Shown here: positions 51,976 through 60,008 of the stretch, piece by piece
Position numbering within the stretch: position 1 is the first letter of the stretch
Layout of the letters: each line of letters opens with the position of its first letter
Assembly (NCBI RefSeq): GCF_030159055.1
Contig: NZ_BQXQ01000006.1
Span: forward strand, 62,001-126,000
Source of the DNA: Acidovorax sp. SUPP3334
Lineage (GTDB): Bacteria > Pseudomonadota > Gammaproteobacteria > Burkholderiales > Burkholderiaceae_C
DNA: 64,000 nt
Reading direction: 5' to 3'
The notes under the pieces: model-generated
The model's input: the letters and a program-made list of their open reading frames with translations, nothing else
What the model was told of the DNA's origin: nothing
The model's database searches: none
Program-made: the position numbers and the translations under genes

Positions 51976-53454
51976 ATGGGAAAGACCACCGGCTTCATGG
52001 AATACGGGCGCATCGAAGAGGGCTACCGCCCCGCCTCCGAGCGCTTGAAGCACTACAAGGAATTCGTCATCGGCCTCGATGACGCGCAGGCCAAGATCCA
52101 GGGCGCGCGCTGCATGGACTGCGGCACGCCGTTCTGCAACAACGGCTGCCCGGTCAACAACATCATTCCGGACTTCAACGACCTGGTGTACCAGCAGGAC
52201 TGGAAGAGCGCCATCGCGGTGCTGCACAGCACCAACAACTTTCCCGAGTTCACCGGCCGCATCTGCCCCGCGCCCTGCGAGGCGGCCTGCGTGCTCAACG
52301 TGAACGACGACCCGGTGGGCATCAAGTCCATCGAGCACGCCATCATCGACCGTGCCTGGGCCGAGGGCTGGGTCAAGCCGCTGCCCCCGAAGCACAAGAC
52401 CGGCAAAAAGGTCGCCGTGGTCGGCTCCGGCCCGGCCGGCATGGCGGCGGCGCAGCAACTGGCGCGCGCTGGCCATGACGTGACGCTGTTCGAGAAGAAC
52501 GACCGCATCGGCGGCCTGCTGCGCTACGGCATTCCCGACTTCAAGATGGAGAAGTCGCACATCGACCGGCGCGCCGAGCAGATGGCTGCCGAGGGCGTCA
52601 CCCTCCGCACCGGCGTGTTCATCGGTGCGGTGAAGGACGGCCTGGGCAAGGGCTCCAAGGTCACCAACTGGGCCAAGGAAACCATCACGCCCGAGCAGCT
52701 GCAAAAGGACTTCGATGCCGTGCTGCTGACCGGCGGCGCCGAGCAGTCGCGCGACCTGCCCGTGCCCGGCCGCGACCTGGACGGCGTGCACTTCGCGATG
52801 GAGTTCCTGCCCCAGCAGAACAAGGTCAACGCGGGCGACAAGCTCAAGGGCCAGCTGCGCGCCGACGGCAAGCACGTCATCGTGATCGGCGGCGGCGACA
52901 CCGGCAGCGACTGCGTGGGCACCAGCAACCGCCACGGCGCCGTGAGCGTCACGCAGTTCGAACTGATGCCCCAGCCGCCCGAGGTGGAAAACCGCCCCAT
53001 GACCTGGCCGTACTGGCCGATCAAGCTGCGCACCAGCTCCAGCCACGAAGAGGGCTGCGAGCGCGAGTTCGCCATCTCCACCAAGGAACTGCTCGGTGAG
53101 AAGGGCAAGGTCACCGGCCTCAAGACCGTCCGCGTGGAATGGAAGGAAGGCAAGATGGTCGAGGTGGCCGGCTCCGAGCAAATTCTGAAGGCCGACCTCG
53201 TGCTGCTGGCCATGGGCTTCGTGAGCCCCGTTGCCCAGGTGCTGGATGCCTTCGGCGTGGACAAGGACGCCCGCGGCAACGCGAAGGCCACCACCGACTT
53301 CGACGGCGGCTACGCCACCAACGTGCCCAAGGTGTTCGCCGCGGGCGACATGCGCCGGGGCCAGTCCCTGGTGGTGTGGGCCATTCGCGAAGGCCGCCAG
53401 GCCGCGCGCTCGGTGGACGAGTTCCTGATGGGGTACTCCGACCTGCCGCGCTGA
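51976..53454 (+). CDS. gltD: glutamate synthase small subunit
   Basis: NADPH- and FAD-binding subunit of 492 residues that feeds electrons to GltB. N-terminal cysteines ([17 protein letters not shown] and CPAPCEAAC) bind 4Fe-4S clusters. The FAD motif is [16 protein letters not shown], and [11 protein letters not shown] binds NADPH. The length is normal. A terminator follows about 35 bp after the stop, closing the gltBD operon. Confidence 0.97.
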
Positions 53455-53488
53455 GCTTCTCCAAAAGCGGCACGTCCGCAGAAAAAAC

Positions 53489-53516
53489 AAACGGCGCTCT
53501 TCGGAGCGCCGTTTTT
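53489..53516 (+). terminator. Rho-independent terminator of gltBD
   Basis: ACGGCGCTC (53491-53499), TTCG loop, GAGCGCCGT (53504-53512), then TTTT. It begins 35 bp after the gltD stop. Confidence 0.92.
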
Positions 53517-53542
53517 CGGGGTGCCGCTGGCCCGCGGGAGCC

Positions 53543-53575
53543 AAAAAAAAGCCCCCGCCGAATGGCAGGGGCTTT
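53543..53575 (-). terminator. Rho-independent terminator of the stefin-like gene
   Basis: GCCCCTGCC pairs with GGCGGGGGC on the minus strand, and the stem is followed by eight Ts (A-run 53543-53550 on the plus strand). It lies about 85 bp past the stefin-like stop. Confidence 0.88.
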
Positions 53576-53658
53576 CGCGGGAAGGCCAGCGTTTGCGGCG
53601 CAGCGCCGTTCACCTTTTTCCTTCCTCTTTTTTCTCCTGCCTCCCTCTCCTACCGAAA

Positions 53659-53934
53659 TCAGGGTGTGATTTCGATGATCTGGGCGATGTGGGGCTGGCC
53701 TTGGCCTGGCAGCGGTTGGTAGATGTGGAGCTTCACCACGCGCACAGTGTTGGGCACCACGTACTGGGCCTGGGACAGGAACGAGTAGTTGGTGCCGGCG
53801 ACCACTTGGGTTGCGAAGGCGAACGGGGTGTACTTGGTCCCCGCCAGGGTCACGGCTTCCGCGAAGACCTTCTTGGCCTCTGCGGTAAGTTCGAAATTGA
53901 AGCCGGTCCAGCCGCCTGCAAGATTGTTCGACAT
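53659..53934 (-). CDS. stefin (type-1 cystatin)-like small protein
   Basis: Protein of 91 residues from ATG 53934, chosen because AGAGAGG lies nine bases upstream; the ATG at 53943 has none. It has the layout of a stefin: Gly7-Gly8 near the N-terminus, one helix (about 17-31), then the cystatin papain-binding loop QVVAGTNY at 43-50, a following strand and LHIYQPLPGQ (69-78), which corresponds to the second hairpin loop. The QVVAG motif and the LPGQ loop are both characteristic of animal stefins A and B. There is no signal peptide or disulfide cysteine, as in type-1 stefins. The likely role is inhibition of a papain-type cysteine protease. This is a motif-based call. Confidence 0.75.
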   Translation of the reverse strand: MSNNLAGGWTGFNFELTAEAKKVFAEAVTLAGTKYTPFAFATQVVAGTNYSFLSQAQYVVPNTVRVVKLHIYQPLPGQGQPHIAQIIEITP

Positions 53935-53974
53935 GTCGCTCATCCTCTCTAGGTTTTGGTCGCTGCGTGAGTGA

Positions 53975-54006
53975 AGCCAAAAACGTGCGAGCCTCCGTTT
54001 TTGGCT
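53975..54006. promoter_or_regulatory. inverted repeat in the leader of the stefin-like gene
   Basis: AGCCAAAAACG (53975-53985) and CGTTTTTGGCT (53996-54006) form a perfect 11-bp inverted repeat with a 10-nt loop, 41 to 72 bp upstream of the start. It could be an operator or an RNA hairpin. The remaining upstream sequence to 54197 shows no gene. Confidence 0.65.
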
Positions 54007-54196
54007 GTCCATTCGTCATCGGAGAGCGATTTTTTTGAATGCTTGGTGATTCTTCGAATGCGTCGTTCCCAGCCTGCGGATTGTGGCGACGGGCCTTGCT
54101 TTTGCCCTTAACAGGGGCTGAGAAGTCCTGAAACGTTCTGAATTTTCCGGGGCCCCGCGATCGGTGCGCAGTGCGGCCTTCTGCCCTGAAAGCAAA

Positions 54197-54216
54197 ACGA
54201 CGCCTTGCGGCGCCGT
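54197..54216 (-). terminator. hairpin downstream of the first TonB receptor
   Basis: ACGGCGCC and GGCGTCGT on the minus strand form an 8-bp stem with one mismatch, followed by TTTGC. It lies about 75 bp past the receptor stop. Confidence 0.5.
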
Positions 54217-54221
54217 TCCTG

Positions 54222-54287
54222 AATGCTATGAAAATGTGAGCTATATGCCGGCGCATTCATTGCACTGGAGGCTGTTTTGGCTCTGAA
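54222..54287 (+). repeat. interspersed repeat, copy E
   Basis: GCTAT...GAGCTATATGCC, then ATTGCACTGGAGGCTGTTTT and GCTCTGAA. It lies 3 bp past the stop of the TonB-receptor gene, in the 356-bp gap to the stefin-like gene. The first hairpin arm is degraded. Confidence 0.75.
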
Positions 54288-54290
54288 TCT

Positions 54291-56480
54291 TCAGAACTTG
54301 TACTGCATCCCCACCGTCACCTGACGCGGGCTGCCCGGCATGACCCAGACGCGGTTGTAGGCGCTGTGGTAGTAGGTCTTGTCGAACAGGTTGTCCACGT
54401 CCAGCGACACGCGCAGGCGCTTGTCCAGGTTCCAGTAGGTGGTGAGCTTGGCGACCGTGTAGGCGGGCAGGCGCGGCTCGCCCGTGTCGCCGTGGCGTTC
54501 GCCCACATGGGTGAACCCGCCGCCCACGCCCAGCAGGCCGCCGCCGGCCAGCGCCATCTCGTGCGTGACGAAGGCGCTGGCGCTCTGGCGCGCGAACTGG
54601 GTGATGAGCGGGTCTGCGTCCAGATAGGTGTAGCTCAGCGCCACGCGCCAGCCGGGGGCGACCCAGCCGGCCAGTTCCGCCTCCAGCCCCCGGTTGCGCA
54701 CCTTGCCCGGCCGTGGCACGAGGTACACCCCGTCGTCGTCCCACGTCGCCGTGTTGCGCTTGCTGATGTCGAACAGGGCCACGCTGCCGCCAAGACGCGC
54801 ATCGGCGCTTTGCCACTTCATGCCCAGCTCGCGCGCGTTGCCGATCTCCGGCTTGATCTGCTCGCCCGCGGCCGTGGTCTGGGCCTGCGCGCGAAAGGAC
54901 CGGCCGGCGCTGGCATACACCGACACTTCGGGCGTGGCCAGCCAGGTCAGCCCCAGGCGCGGCGAGGTGGCGCTCGGGTCTTGCGTGGTGACGCGGCCCG
55001 CGCTGCGCTCGTCGATCTCGCCGCGGTAGCGGTCGTGGCGCACGCCGGCCAGCAGCTTCCATTGGGGCGACAGGCTGATCTGGTCCTGCGCGTAGAACGC
55101 GGTGGTGCGGTCGTTGACCGTGCGGTCGATGGCCCGCGCGGTGAGCGCGGGGCGGGGCGCCGCGCCGTACACCGGGTTGGCCACGCTGATGCCATAGCCG
55201 AAGCGCCCGCCGCCCGCCTGCGTGAGCATGGTCTGGTCCATGTCGAAGCGCGAGACCTCGGCACCGATCAACAGGTCGTGCTGGAACGCGCCGGTCGCCA
55301 TGCGGCCATTGAGGTCGATCTGCACCGTGGTGTCGTCGGACTGGAAGTCGCGGCGGATGAGCCGGCGGCACAGCCAGCCGCTGGCCTCGACCGAGGTCTG
55401 GCAGGGCGAGGGGCCGTACTGGTGCGATTCGCTGGCCAGGCCGTCGAGCGTGCCGCGCTTGTATTGCAGGCCGGCGCGCAGGCTCCAGTCGGCCGACAGG
55501 GCCTGCTCCAGGAAGAACTGGTGCGTCTGGTTGTCCACCGTGATGTCGCCGTCGCCGGGCTCGCCGTAAAAGCGCGAGGTGGGCACCGCACCCAGCTGGC
55601 CGCTCACCGAGACGACGCCCCGGTCCAGCGGCGCGCGCTGGCGCAGCCACTCGCCGTCGTAGCGCAGCACCGTGTCGGGGCCGAGCTTCCAGGTGATGGC
55701 CGGGGCGATGAGTTCGCGGCGGCTGTGCACGAAGTCGCGAAAGCTGTCCTTGTCCTCCACCGACACGTTGAGCCGGTAGGCCAGCGTGGCGGGCTCGGTG
55801 GCGCTGCCGTTCAGCGGGCCGGTGCTGTCCAGCGCCAGGCGCTTGGCGTCGTGCGTGCCGTAGTAGGCCTCGACCGAATGCGCCGCCTTGAACAGCGGCG
55901 GCTTGGTCACCACGTTGACGGTGCCCCCGGGTTCGCTGCTGCCGTAGAGCGCCCCCATGGTGCCTTTGAGGAACTCGAAGCGCTCCACATTGGCCGTGTC
56001 GCGCGGCGCGTTGAAACCGCGGTTGGCCGGCATGCCGTTGCGCAGCAGGCTCATGCCCATGTCCTCGTGGCCCACGAAGCCGCGCATGGCCACGTTGTCC
56101 CAGATGCCGCCGAAGTTGTTCTGCCGCGACACGCCGGCCACGTAGTCCAGCACATCGTCCAGCCGCTGGGCGCCCAGGTCATCGACCAACTGCCGCGTGA
56201 CCACGCGCACGGCCTGGGGCACCTCGCGCAGCGGCGTGTCGGTCTTGGTGGCGCCCTCCGACTCCTGGGCGTGGTACTGGCCGGACTGCTGGCGGCCCAC
56301 CACTTCGGTGGCGGGCAGTTGCGGTTCGGCGGCCGCTGGCGCCTGGGCGAAGGCGGGCAGGGCGGCGCCCTGCACCAGGGCCGCGAGGCTGGCGGCGGCC
56401 AGCAGCGACCGGCGCGGTGCAGGGGCGATGGTGGGCGGGAGGATCGGAAATCGCTGGTCAGGGGTCGGGTGGCGGTGCAT
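54291..56480 (-). CDS. TonB-dependent siderophore receptor without STN domain
   Basis: Outer-membrane receptor of 729 residues from ATG 56480. A signal peptide ends near FAQA. The plug domain (about 65-175) has DDVLDYVAGVSRQN and GSSEPGGTVNVVTK. The 22-stranded barrel follows, ending YKF with a terminal Phe as needed for outer-membrane insertion. The N-terminal STN signalling domain is absent: the plug follows almost directly after the signal. It is a close paralogue of the next gene upstream, with the same motifs and gene order, so this is a tandem duplication. It probably takes up a ferric siderophore that does not need FecR signalling. Substrate unknown. Confidence 0.9.
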   Translation of the reverse strand: MHRHPTPDQRFPILPPTIAPAPRRSLLAAASLAALVQGAALPAFAQAPAAAEPQLPATEVVGRQQSGQYHAQESEGATKTDTPLREVPQAVRVVTRQLVDDLGAQRLDDVLDYVAGVSRQNNFGGIWDNVAMRGFVGHEDMGMSLLRNGMPANRGFNAPRDTANVERFEFLKGTMGALYGSSEPGGTVNVVTKPPLFKAAHSVEAYYGTHDAKRLALDSTGPLNGSATEPATLAYRLNVSVEDKDSFRDFVHSRRELIAPAITWKLGPDTVLRYDGEWLRQRAPLDRGVVSVSGQLGAVPTSRFYGEPGDGDITVDNQTHQFFLEQALSADWSLRAGLQYKRGTLDGLASESHQYGPSPCQTSVEASGWLCRRLIRRDFQSDDTTVQIDLNGRMATGAFQHDLLIGAEVSRFDMDQTMLTQAGGGRFGYGISVANPVYGAAPRPALTARAIDRTVNDRTTAFYAQDQISLSPQWKLLAGVRHDRYRGEIDERSAGRVTTQDPSATSPRLGLTWLATPEVSVYASAGRSFRAQAQTTAAGEQIKPEIGNARELGMKWQSADARLGGSVALFDISKRNTATWDDDGVYLVPRPGKVRNRGLEAELAGWVAPGWRVALSYTYLDADPLITQFARQSASAFVTHEMALAGGGLLGVGGGFTHVGERHGDTGEPRLPAYTVAKLTTYWNLDKRLRVSLDVDNLFDKTYYHSAYNRVWVMPGSPRQVTVGMQYKF

Positions 56481-56574
56481 CGGCGCTTTTCTCGTTGGTG
56501 GTATCGAGAAGAAGACACGCAGCACCCGGGAAAGGGGACAGCCTTTCGTGCGATTTTTCTTCTTCTTCAAACCA

Positions 56575-59013
56575 TCAAAACGTGTGCTTCGCCGTGAACG
56601 TGACGTGGCGCGGCGCACCGGGCACCACCCATACGCTGTTGTAGGCGCTGGCGTCATAGCGCCGGTCGAAGGCGTTGTCCACCTGCAGCGACAGGCGCAG
56701 CGATGGCCCCGCCTGCCAGTGCGCGAGCAGCCGCACGGTGGTGTAGGCGGGCAGCCGGGGCGAGCCGGCATCCCCCGTGCGCTCCCCCACGTGCGTGAGC
56801 CCGCCCCCGAAGCCGACCGTGTGCCCGCCTGAGCCGGTGCCGCCCGCGCCTGCGTCCAGCGCCCACTCGCGCACCAGCAGCACGCTGCCGCTTGCGCGCG
56901 GAAACTGCGGCAAGGCCCGCTGCAGCCAGGCCGCGCCGGACACGACGTTCCAGCCCGGCACGGGCCGGCCCGTCAGTTCGAACTCCACGCCCCGGCTGCG
57001 CACGCGCCCCGCCGCCACGCTGTGGTCGGGGTTCTGCGGATCGGTGACGAGCACGTTGCGCTTGGCGATGTCATAGATCGCGAGCGAGGCCGACAGCCGG
57101 CCCTCGGGCGGCTGCCATTTCACGCCGAGTTCGCGCGCCAGGCCCTTCTCGGGCGCGAACGCGCTGCCTCGCACATCGACCCCCACGTTCGGGCGGAACG
57201 AAGCGCCGACGCTGCCGTACACCGCCCATCCCGGCACGGGCAGCCACGTGAGGCCGGCGCGCGGCGAGAACGCGCCCTGCGCCTGGCGCCGCGTGCCGCC
57301 GGCCAGCCGGTCGTCCACGGCCTGGCGGAAGCGGTCGTGGCGCAGGCCCAGCAGCGCCTGCCACTGCGGCGCGAGCTGGATCTGGTCCTGCACGTACAGG
57401 CCCACGCCGCGCTGGCGTTCGTCGGTGGACAGAAAATCCTGCGTGCTCGGCCGCGCGGCCCCGTACACCGGGTGGCGCACATCGATGCCGTCGCTCTCCC
57501 AGGCGCTGGCCGGTGCCTGCTGCATGACCTGCGACAGGCTGAAGCGAAACGCCTCGGCCCCCGCCAGCAGCGTGTGCTGCAGCCCACCGGCCACCCACTG
57601 GCCCTGCAGATCGATCTGGCCCGACCGGTCGGACGACGCGAAGTCGCGCCAGCGCCGCTGGCGCCACAGCCAGCCGCGCGCCTGCAGGTCGGCCAGGGCC
57701 TCGCCGTAGCCGTGGCCGTAGGTGGTGGTGCCCCGCATCGTGCCGCGCCGCGCCATCAGGCCCGCATGCAGGCGCCAGCCCGGCGACAGCGCATGCTCCA
57801 GCAGCCACTGGTGCGTCTGGTTGACCATGGTGAGGTCGCCGTCGCCGGGCTCCCCGTAGAACGCGCCGATCGGCACCGTGCCCAACTGCCCGCCGAGCGC
57901 GACCACGCCCCTGTCCAGCGGCGCGCGCTGGCGCAGCCATTCGCCGTCGTAGCGCAGCGTGGTGGCCTCGGCCAAGTGCCATGTGAGCGCAGGCGCCAGC
58001 ATTTCGCGGCGCGTGCGAACGTGCTCGCGAAAGCTGTCCTTGTCCTCTGCCACGGCGGTCAGCCGGTAGGCGATGCGGGCGGGCGCGGGCGGGTCGTCGC
58101 CTGCTTTTCCGTCTCCGTTGACGCCAGCGTGGGCGTCAACGTCCAGCGGGCCGCCCAGGGTGAGCGCGGCACGCCGTGCGTTCCAGCGGCCCAGGCTCCA
58201 TTCGATGGTGCGCAGCGGCTCCCACGGCGCCGGCTGCGTCACCACATTGATGGTGCCGCCGGGCTCGGACACGCCGTACAGCGCGGCCACCGGACCGCGC
58301 AGGAATTCAAAGCGCTCCACGTTGGCCGTGTCGCGCGGCGCGTTGTAGCCGCGGTTGCCGGCCATGCCGTTGCGAAGCAGGCTCATGCCCGTGTCTTCGT
58401 GCCCGGCGAAACCCCGCACGGCCACGTTGTCCCAGGTGCCGCCGAAGTCGTTCTGGCGCGATACGCCGGGCACGTAATCGAGCGCGTGGTCCAGCCGCGT
58501 GGCACCCAGCGCATCGAGCGACTGGCGCGACACGACCGACAGGGCCTGCGGCACGGCCAGGGACGGCGTGTCGGTGCGAATCGCGGCGCCAGCAGCGCTC
58601 CATTCGACGCCTTCGTCCGGCGCTGCGCCGCGCCGGGCCGTCACCCGCACCACGGGCAGCACCTCGGCCTCGGGAGCAGGGAGCGCAGGCCACGGGGCCG
58701 TCGCCTGGCGCCGCAGCACGAACACCCCTGGCGATTCTTCGGCCGCGGCGAGCCCGCTGCCCGCCAGCAGGCGTGAAAGCGCCTCGCCCGCCGTGAGCCG
58801 GCCCGCCACCCCCGGCGCCTGCACGCCACGCAACAAGGTCGCGTCGGCCTGCACCGAGGCGCCGGTCTGGGCCGCCAGCGCGGGCAATCGGTCGGCCAGC
58901 GGCCCTGCCGGCAGATCGATGGCGAGCGGCCCGGGGCCTGCTGCCTGTGCGTTGGCAGCGGCCAGCAGGCACAGCGCCAGGGAGCCGGCCAGTGCGCGCG
59001 TGCGGGCCACCAT
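56575..59013 (-). CDS. TonB-dependent siderophore receptor with STN (FecA-like) domain
   Basis: Outer-membrane receptor of 812 residues. The ATG at 59013 overlaps the fecR stop (TGATG). A signal peptide is followed by an STN domain (about 27-100: LAIDLPAGPLADRLPALAA and TAGEALSRLLAGSGL), a TonB-box-like short stretch, the plug (about 150-260) with RGFAGHEDTGMSLL and VSEPGGTINVVT, then the barrel ending HTF. The STN domain contacts FecR to report ligand binding and turn on the FecI sigma factor. It is the signalling partner of the set; the downstream receptor is a paralogue without it. Confidence 0.93.
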   Translation of the reverse strand: MVARTRALAGSLALCLLAAANAQAAGPGPLAIDLPAGPLADRLPALAAQTGASVQADATLLRGVQAPGVAGRLTAGEALSRLLAGSGLAAAEESPGVFVLRRQATAPWPALPAPEAEVLPVVRVTARRGAAPDEGVEWSAAGAAIRTDTPSLAVPQALSVVSRQSLDALGATRLDHALDYVPGVSRQNDFGGTWDNVAVRGFAGHEDTGMSLLRNGMAGNRGYNAPRDTANVERFEFLRGPVAALYGVSEPGGTINVVTQPAPWEPLRTIEWSLGRWNARRAALTLGGPLDVDAHAGVNGDGKAGDDPPAPARIAYRLTAVAEDKDSFREHVRTRREMLAPALTWHLAEATTLRYDGEWLRQRAPLDRGVVALGGQLGTVPIGAFYGEPGDGDLTMVNQTHQWLLEHALSPGWRLHAGLMARRGTMRGTTTYGHGYGEALADLQARGWLWRQRRWRDFASSDRSGQIDLQGQWVAGGLQHTLLAGAEAFRFSLSQVMQQAPASAWESDGIDVRHPVYGAARPSTQDFLSTDERQRGVGLYVQDQIQLAPQWQALLGLRHDRFRQAVDDRLAGGTRRQAQGAFSPRAGLTWLPVPGWAVYGSVGASFRPNVGVDVRGSAFAPEKGLARELGVKWQPPEGRLSASLAIYDIAKRNVLVTDPQNPDHSVAAGRVRSRGVEFELTGRPVPGWNVVSGAAWLQRALPQFPRASGSVLLVREWALDAGAGGTGSGGHTVGFGGGLTHVGERTGDAGSPRLPAYTTVRLLAHWQAGPSLRLSLQVDNAFDRRYDASAYNSVWVVPGAPRHVTFTAKHTF

Positions 59014-60008
59014 CAGCCTTGCGCGTCGGCCGGCAGCACCCGAGCCCAGTAGCGCGTGCGCCAGGCCACACGCACGGGCAGGGTGCGGGGCAGGGCGTCG
59101 AGCACGGCGTCGGTGCGGTCGATCTGGAACGCGCCGGCGATGCGCAGCCCGGCCACGGCCGGGTCGCACTGCACGATGCCCGCGCGGTAGCGCGCCAGTT
59201 CACCGAGGAATTCGCCCAGCGGCTGGTTGCGCGCCACCAGCAGCCCCTCGGTCCAGCGACCGGTGAACGGGTCGGCCGGCACGCTGGGCGACAGTTCGCC
59301 GGCCGTGAAGCGCATCGCCTGGCCCGCCGCCACCGTTCGCGCCAGCCCCTGCGCCGTGCGCACGGCCACGGCGCCCTCGTGTACCGTGAGGCCGCAGCCA
59401 TCGGCCGAGTCGCGCACCACGAAGCGCGTGCCCAGCGGGCGCAGTTCGCCCTCGCGCGTGGCGAGCACGAAGGGCCGCGGCGCGGCGGCCTGCGCGTGCG
59501 CAGCGGTTTCGATCAGCACCTCCCCGCGCAGCAGCCGCACGCTGCGCTGCGCGGGCGAATAGGTCACGTCGATGGCGGTGTCGGTGTTGAGCCAGATGCG
59601 CGTGCCATCCGGCAGGGTGATGTCGCGGCGCTCACCCAGCGCGGTGCGGTGGTCGGCCGTCCATGCCGGGCCCCACTGGCGCCAGGCCAGGTGTGCGGCG
59701 GGCACCGCCACCACCAGACCGCCCAGGGCCCTCAGCGCGCTGCGGCGGCCCGTGTCGCGCGCGCGGCCCAGCACGGCATTCGCAAGCGGCGGTGTGATCA
59801 GCCCCAGTTGCGCCTGCATGCGCTGCGCGCGCTGCCAGGCCCGCTCGTGTTCGGGGTGCGCCGCGCGCCAGCGTTCGCAAGCCGCTTGGTCGTGCGCATC
59901 GGCGTGGCCGCTGTGCAGCCGCGCCAGCCATTGGGCGGCGGCGCGCACGGCGTGGCGCTCCAGGGGCAGGGCCACGCCAGTGCCGGCCGGTTCTGCGCTG
60001 CCGCTCAC
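59013..60008 (-). CDS. fecR: FecR-family transmembrane sensor / anti-sigma factor
   Basis: Protein of 331 residues from GTG 60008. The N-terminal cytoplasmic FecR_N part contains AAAQWLARLHSG and WRAAHPEHERAWQRA, which binds the sigma factor. A single membrane helix (about 92-110) is followed by the periplasmic FecR domain with RRDITLPDGTRIWLNTDTAI and LGTRFVVR, which meets the receptor STN domain. It starts 1 bp after the fecI stop and overlaps the receptor gene, so the three are one unit. Confidence 0.93.
   Translation of the reverse strand: MSGSAEPAGTGVALPLERHAVRAAAQWLARLHSGHADAHDQAACERWRAAHPEHERAWQRAQRMQAQLGLITPPLANAVLGRARDTGRRSALRALGGLVVAVPAAHLAWRQWGPAWTADHRTALGERRDITLPDGTRIWLNTDTAIDVTYSPAQRSVRLLRGEVLIETAAHAQAAAPRPFVLATREGELRPLGTRFVVRDSADGCGLTVHEGAVAVRTAQGLARTVAAGQAMRFTAGELSPSVPADPFTGRWTEGLLVARNQPLGEFLGELARYRAGIVQCDPAVAGLRIAGAFQIDRTDAVLDALPRTLPVRVAWRTRYWARVLPADAQG

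Follow-up and report, generated by a model that had tools for sequence, protein, structure and literature searches.

The window (the whole stretch of DNA analysed, 64,000 nucleotides) carries a 91-residue open reading frame whose product is, on sequence homology and the fold predicted for it, most probably a genuine relative of animal stefins (type-1 cystatins, inhibitors of papain-like proteases), and adds a bacterial stefin to an already known, barely tested kind. Taken as a whole, the best explanation, which we consider probable, is that the protein is a cytosolic stefin that would block a papain-like cysteine protease of foreign origin. The host bacterium probably belongs to a genus that includes plant pathogens; the genus was taken as Paracidovorax, and the congeneric set comprised 17 genomes, including that of the window. 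The features are as follows.

53659 to 53934, minus strand: stefin-like coding sequence, 91 amino acids plus stop (orthologues, dN < dS, profiles, model)
53911 to 53916, minus strand: N-terminal GG, the trunk glycine, residues 7-8
53785 to 53808, minus strand: QVVAGTNY, residues 43-50, the first binding loop, lying in the turn that joins strands 33-44 and 48-58 of the model
53701 to 53712, minus strand: LPGQ, second-loop segment, residues 75-78, between model strands 64-73 and 82-89
53944 to 53950, minus strand: AGAGAGG, 9 bases ahead of the ATG and likely the ribosome binding site, with AGAGG at the same place in the six orthologues
53958 to 54005, minus strand: leader with stem GCCAAAAACG/CGTTTTTGGC and loop GAGGCTCGCA, the loop able to pair, pseudoknot-like, with a downstream GCGACC (folding and registration)
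53547 to 53576, minus strand: hairpin resembling an intrinsic terminator, downstream of the stefin gene, 13 pairs

A conserved coding gene and its locus

The 91-residue frame given in the preliminary description was confirmed on the minus strand, with codons running from 53934 down to 53662 and the stop codon to 53659. A second in-frame ATG lies 9 bases upstream of the chosen one and makes the start uncertain; in genome G1034 the upstream ATG is absent and AGAGAGG stands equally distant from the chosen ATG. The gene was found in 6 of the 17 congeneric genomes, in all six beside gltD, which is itself present in 17/17. Among eight homologues, dN was below dS in all 26 finite pairs (ratio 0.02-0.86, the top values involving the congener G1044; 2 of the 28 pairs were saturated). 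Because orthologues lie at the same place and dN is below dS, the stefin gene is coding and conserved. Since single-sequence searches were insignificant, and the window is GC-rich with many overlapping open reading frames, a chance motif in non-coding DNA or in an unrelated frame might be suspected; the orthologues in 6/17 genomes, the dN/dS pattern, and the profile and fold matches described below rule this out and leave it next to no probability.

One congener, G1045 (L043:982-1500), offers a natural empty site, where gltD and a receptor gene (97.6% identical over 327 residues) remain and the alignment shows the stefin gene and its leader gone as one block. Loss of the stefin is the simpler reading, because more distant congeners carry it at the same place.

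The tail-to-tail neighbour of the stefin gene (51976-53454, plus strand) encodes a GltD-like oxidoreductase with Fer4_20 and Pyr_redox_2 domains; we take the neighbouring genes to be gltB and gltD. Upstream of the stefin gene on its own strand lie two genes for TonB-dependent receptors with plug and barrel domains (54291-59169, minus strand), neither of which turned up in the 12 kb covered at the G1044 stefin locus. At 60.8%, the G+C content of the stefin gene is below that of gltD (67.0%) and of the window (65.7%). With the GltD-like oxidoreductase and the two receptors as neighbours, there is no peptidase gene beside the window stefin. An operon partner was rejected, as matches to gltB, gltD and the receptors occurred at Paracidovorax loci only and at none of five others (L001, L002, L037, L038, L039), and no recurring partner gene was seen by eye in the open reading frame listings of nine loci.

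The gene had also been credited with its own start signal, leader hairpin and terminator. This held for AGAGAGG before the ATG, the leader hairpin upstream and the terminator-like hairpin downstream, but the number of terminator-like sites was near chance (3 found in the scan versus 1.7, sd 1.2, expected) and the scan for sigma-70-like promoters found 0 versus 0.3 expected.

Stefin identity and predicted fold

Profile searches tie the family to known stefins with E-values of 2.8e-6 and 5.5e-7. Searched singly, the window protein had no match to the cystatin family PF00031, nor to any other Pfam family (0 in all), the I42 domain of chagasins included. The profile behind the value of 2.8e-6, like the counts given below for alignments A2 and A6, is free of motif-selected rows, save row L019 of A6, which came from a profile search. 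The model has the cystatin fold, an antiparallel sheet wrapped round one helix, and its structural alignments to animal type-1 cystatins give 22-24% identity; a first AlphaFold run on 4 sequences was poor (pLDDT 52), and no claim was drawn from it. At 91 residues and with no cysteine, the protein resembles the type-1 norm of about 100 residues and no disulphides. There is no signal-like start, with no K or R in the first 8 residues and a top 12-residue hydropathy of 0.93 within the first 35, as judged without a dedicated predictor. The identification as a stefin, which the preliminary description had drawn from the motifs, is thus supported by the profile matches, the predicted fold and the conserved main loop.

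The binding edge

The first loop is conserved. QxVxG occurs in 9/9 rows of the close alignment A6, in 9/10 of A2 and in 16/16 of A3, the last count being partly circular because most of the remote rows were fetched with loop-containing patterns. All nine close-family rows are identical at residues 41-45 and 47-50. QVVAGTNY, proposed earlier as the papain-binding loop, sits at the first hairpin turn of the model and keeps the conserved QxVxG. The N-terminal glycines likewise proved to be where a cystatin would place them, with GG in 9/10 rows of A2 and 7/9 of A6, the remaining two A6 rows having one G. For the claim that the two loops follow in the same order and spacing as in animal stefins, the order is alike and a second hairpin loop is in place (model residues 74-81), but the phmmer alignment to stefin A has a 5-residue insertion between the loops, and the exact letters LPGQ stand in 5/9 A6 rows, window protein included. 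Because the letters are kept in only those five rows, the literal match to stefin A is probably incidental. The earlier two-loop comparison is therefore correct in general terms, with the LPGQ letters counting for little.

The cystatin fold might have been adapted here to bind something without inhibiting a protease, as in monellin, SQAPI or CRES. The invariance of residues 41-45 and 47-50, and the fusion of a chagasin to a stefin in a relative (L005, below), count against such a use, which we regard as improbable.

Two divergent members were seen. A remote one in genome G076 (L006:1503-1758; 31-33% identical) has RDLGG in place of the QVVAG loop and is perhaps a non-inhibitory paralogue; another, in G974 (L020), has its first loop shortened to ATQVNYSF within a short frame and is perhaps a decayed copy.

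A leader with pseudoknot-like pairing

Fourteen leaders were looked at, 12 by folding and 2 by sequence. Eight of them, the closest (L001, L002 and the six from Paracidovorax), can be aligned as a stem whose loop, reading AGGCTCGCA, AGGCGCGCA or AGGTTGC, pairs downstream with GCGACC, GCGCCC or GCAACC just before the ribosome binding site; no such pattern was noticed by eye in the remaining six. The loop pairing is complete in 8/8 leaders (48/48 cells, with one bulged base passed over in six of the eight) versus 11-22/48 when slid by 1-3 bases, and the first stem forms 5-10 pairs out of 9-11 positions without bulges. Two-sided changes occur in G1044 (G-C versus T-A elsewhere) and in L001 and L002 (T-A versus C-G elsewhere). 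The registration was made by hand and is biased towards the structure, and the independent lineages number only three. In a loose pseudoknot scan the leaders did not rise above shuffles (for each leader, between 10 and 168 of the 200 shuffles also matched, and the real G1044 leader gave none).

Rfam gave no family match over the leader. A known RNA family was rejected for the leader; 17 weak matches lay elsewhere in 53400-54400, the best being sX6 (E 0.0042, 21 bits versus a gathering score of 40). At orthologue loci there was no Rfam match at E <= 1 in four, L001 had two chance-level matches and L002 none. The pattern AGGCTCGCAYG..GCGACC occurs once in the window genome, at the stefin gene, and in 29/299 genomes; because a reversed control pattern also gave 29, its occurrences away from the stefin gene look like chance. 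The leader may act as an RNA pseudoknot in the control of translation; since the changes affect both sides of the pairing, a DNA operator is less favoured.

Distribution and relatives

Stefin relatives were found in 3/299 genomes of the same bacterial family and 1/369 of the class, and profile searches gave 9/398 genomes of the phylum and 3/349 of the order, each count including the window's own genome. The distribution, which had been put forward for checking, is therefore rare and patchy (3/299 in the family, 6/17 among congeners). Six peptide patterns run over a species-genome collection returned three loci, 73-76% identical, in a Neisseriaceae, a Rhodocyclaceae and Paracidovorax anthurii. 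Because the Neisseriaceae and Rhodocyclaceae homologues are nearer to the window protein than is that of the congener G1044 (60-63%), horizontal transfer of the stefin gene is suggested by the sequences; a 16-protein tree, with support below 80 on 8 of its 13 inner branches, did not resolve transfer.

Carriage of the close family as phage or plasmid cargo was rejected. Phages gave no match to the close family, and three plasmid records hold homologues that are 38-42% identical. Viral contigs gave nothing with the window protein; a profile scan gave 8 remote loci, and two scans with remote relatives gave 6 and 1, on partly shared contigs.

The family also appears in other architectures. In genome G126, of the same bacterial family, a 208-codon open frame (L005:1138-1761) joins two domains, an I42 domain of the chagasin type (E 4.2e-10, above cut-off) and, after it, a stefin domain 43% identical to the window protein. 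An IMG/VR contig (L014:3-5255) has a stefin-like domain at the C-terminus of a 1751-residue frame, open at the locus end, which also contains copper amine oxidase N-terminal and cadherin-like domains. The Aureibacter plasmid pAT1 (L008:3980-4543) encodes two tandem stefin-like domains in one frame, PF00031 matching the second at E 0.0015, below cut-off. At L021-L026 (five genomes of the window's class, one from a different class), lipoprotein-like leaders recognised by eye precede a GGW..QVV[AN]G domain and point to exported versions of the family.

Proposed function and target

The gene product would be a cytosolic type-1 cystatin whose binding edge is made up of the N-terminal Gly-Gly stretch, the QVVAG hairpin and the second hairpin loop; inserted like a wedge into the active-site cleft, this edge would reversibly block a papain-like (C1A) cysteine protease. 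The target would be foreign, belonging to a host plant, a protist or a rival, and might be reached by shielding inside the cell, by release on lysis or by export through the type III system of the window genome. Beyond the homology, predicted fold and main-loop conservation that we observe, we infer inhibition and, with less confidence, a foreign target. The best hint of function is L005, which argues that the stefin branch would inhibit cysteine proteases, because it fuses two unrelated folds that share this activity. The target is more likely foreign because a Peptidase_C1 search (PF00112) was negative in the window genome and its 16 congeners (0/17, this search only), the same search being positive in 3/14 control genomes.

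Self-regulation is weakened by that result, yet the protein could regulate an endogenous cysteine peptidase outside C1, much as staphostatins act on their bacterium's own staphopains. Staphostatins are cytosolic, and the window protein has no signal-like start. Staphostatins are also endogenous inhibitors of secreted staphopains (PMC7863939, the part available). Set against these parallels, no peptidase gene adjoins the window stefin, and PF00112, the one clan CA family searched, is absent from all 17 genomes; we hold endogenous regulation to be improbable.

Direction at a host was also weighed, in which the stefin would reach plant cells or the apoplast by a type III system or by lysis and block immune papain-like proteases. 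Paracidovorax anthurii, the source of one close homologue, is a plant pathogen. HrcV scored above cut-off in 13/17 congeneric genomes, comprising 6/6 stefin carriers versus 7/11 non-carriers, and the window genome's own match (826 bits, above cut-off) attests one component only of a type III system. Inhibitors of plant papain-like proteases have been described from bacteria and oomycetes (PMC12485229, the part available). However, the hrcV association is not significant (one-sided Fisher p 0.14, uncorrected for kinship), the protein has no signal-like start, and close homologues occur in Neisseriaceae and Rhodocyclaceae genomes with no known relation to plants. The PIP box is TTCGB-N14..16-TTCGB, and none lies within 400 bases upstream of any of the six orthologues; this counts against an HrpX-controlled effector. 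We regard a host-directed effector as unlikely, though the least so of the alternatives. It would be a long shot to suppose further that a plant-associated bacterium turns the stefin on plant papain-like immune proteases, convergently with the oomycete EPICs, under an undescribed pseudoknot leader that moves with the gene between bacterial families.

The cytosolic stefin with a foreign target thus remains our preferred reading. The literature searched, with subscription journals largely outside it, yielded no assay of any bacterial stefin. The window stefin is ordinary in its category and useful as a test case: because self-regulation is weakened and only some close relatives carry the gene, one of the others having an empty site, the purpose of a bacterial stefin becomes directly testable.

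Comparison with known systems

Animal type-1 cystatins (stefins A and B, Fasciola 6i1m and CsStefin-1 5zc1) share with the window stefin the predicted fold, the N-terminal glycines and QVVAG, and both lack cysteines and a signal-like start; they differ in sequence (22-24% identity), in the five extra residues between the loops relative to stefin A, and in a second loop that varies within the bacterial family.

The chagasin fold is unrelated to the stefin fold, and Cip1 is chagasin-like. Bacterial chagasins (I42) and Cip1 inhibit papain-like proteases, and an I42 domain is fused to the window-stefin relative at L005, whereas the window stefin has no I42 match. In the part of the source available, the Phytophthora EPICs and Cip1 (C14-inhibitor protein-1) of Pseudomonas syringae block plant immune papain-like proteases (PMC12485229).

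In staphostatin systems the target protease gene is adjacent to that of the inhibitor. The window stefin has no adjacent protease. Staphostatins (I57) resemble it as bacterial protein inhibitors of cysteine proteases, but fold as a beta-barrel and are each dedicated to one target protease (PMC7863939, the part available).

The nearest precedent is that of Kordis and Turk (2009), who, in the accessible portion of the paper, report bacterial cystatin-superfamily proteins with conserved eukaryotic motifs, patchy over 17 listed genera that include Betaproteobacteria such as Burkholderia and Lutiella, describe a stefin-chagasin fusion in Bacteroides fragilis, and propose bacterial stefins as inhibitors of host proteases (PMC2784779). 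Compared by genus list rather than by sequence, the 17 genera named there do not include Paracidovorax or Acidovorax. In kind, in patchiness and in chagasin fusion, here in the relative at L005, those bacterial stefins, as far as that portion describes them, and the window stefin are alike.
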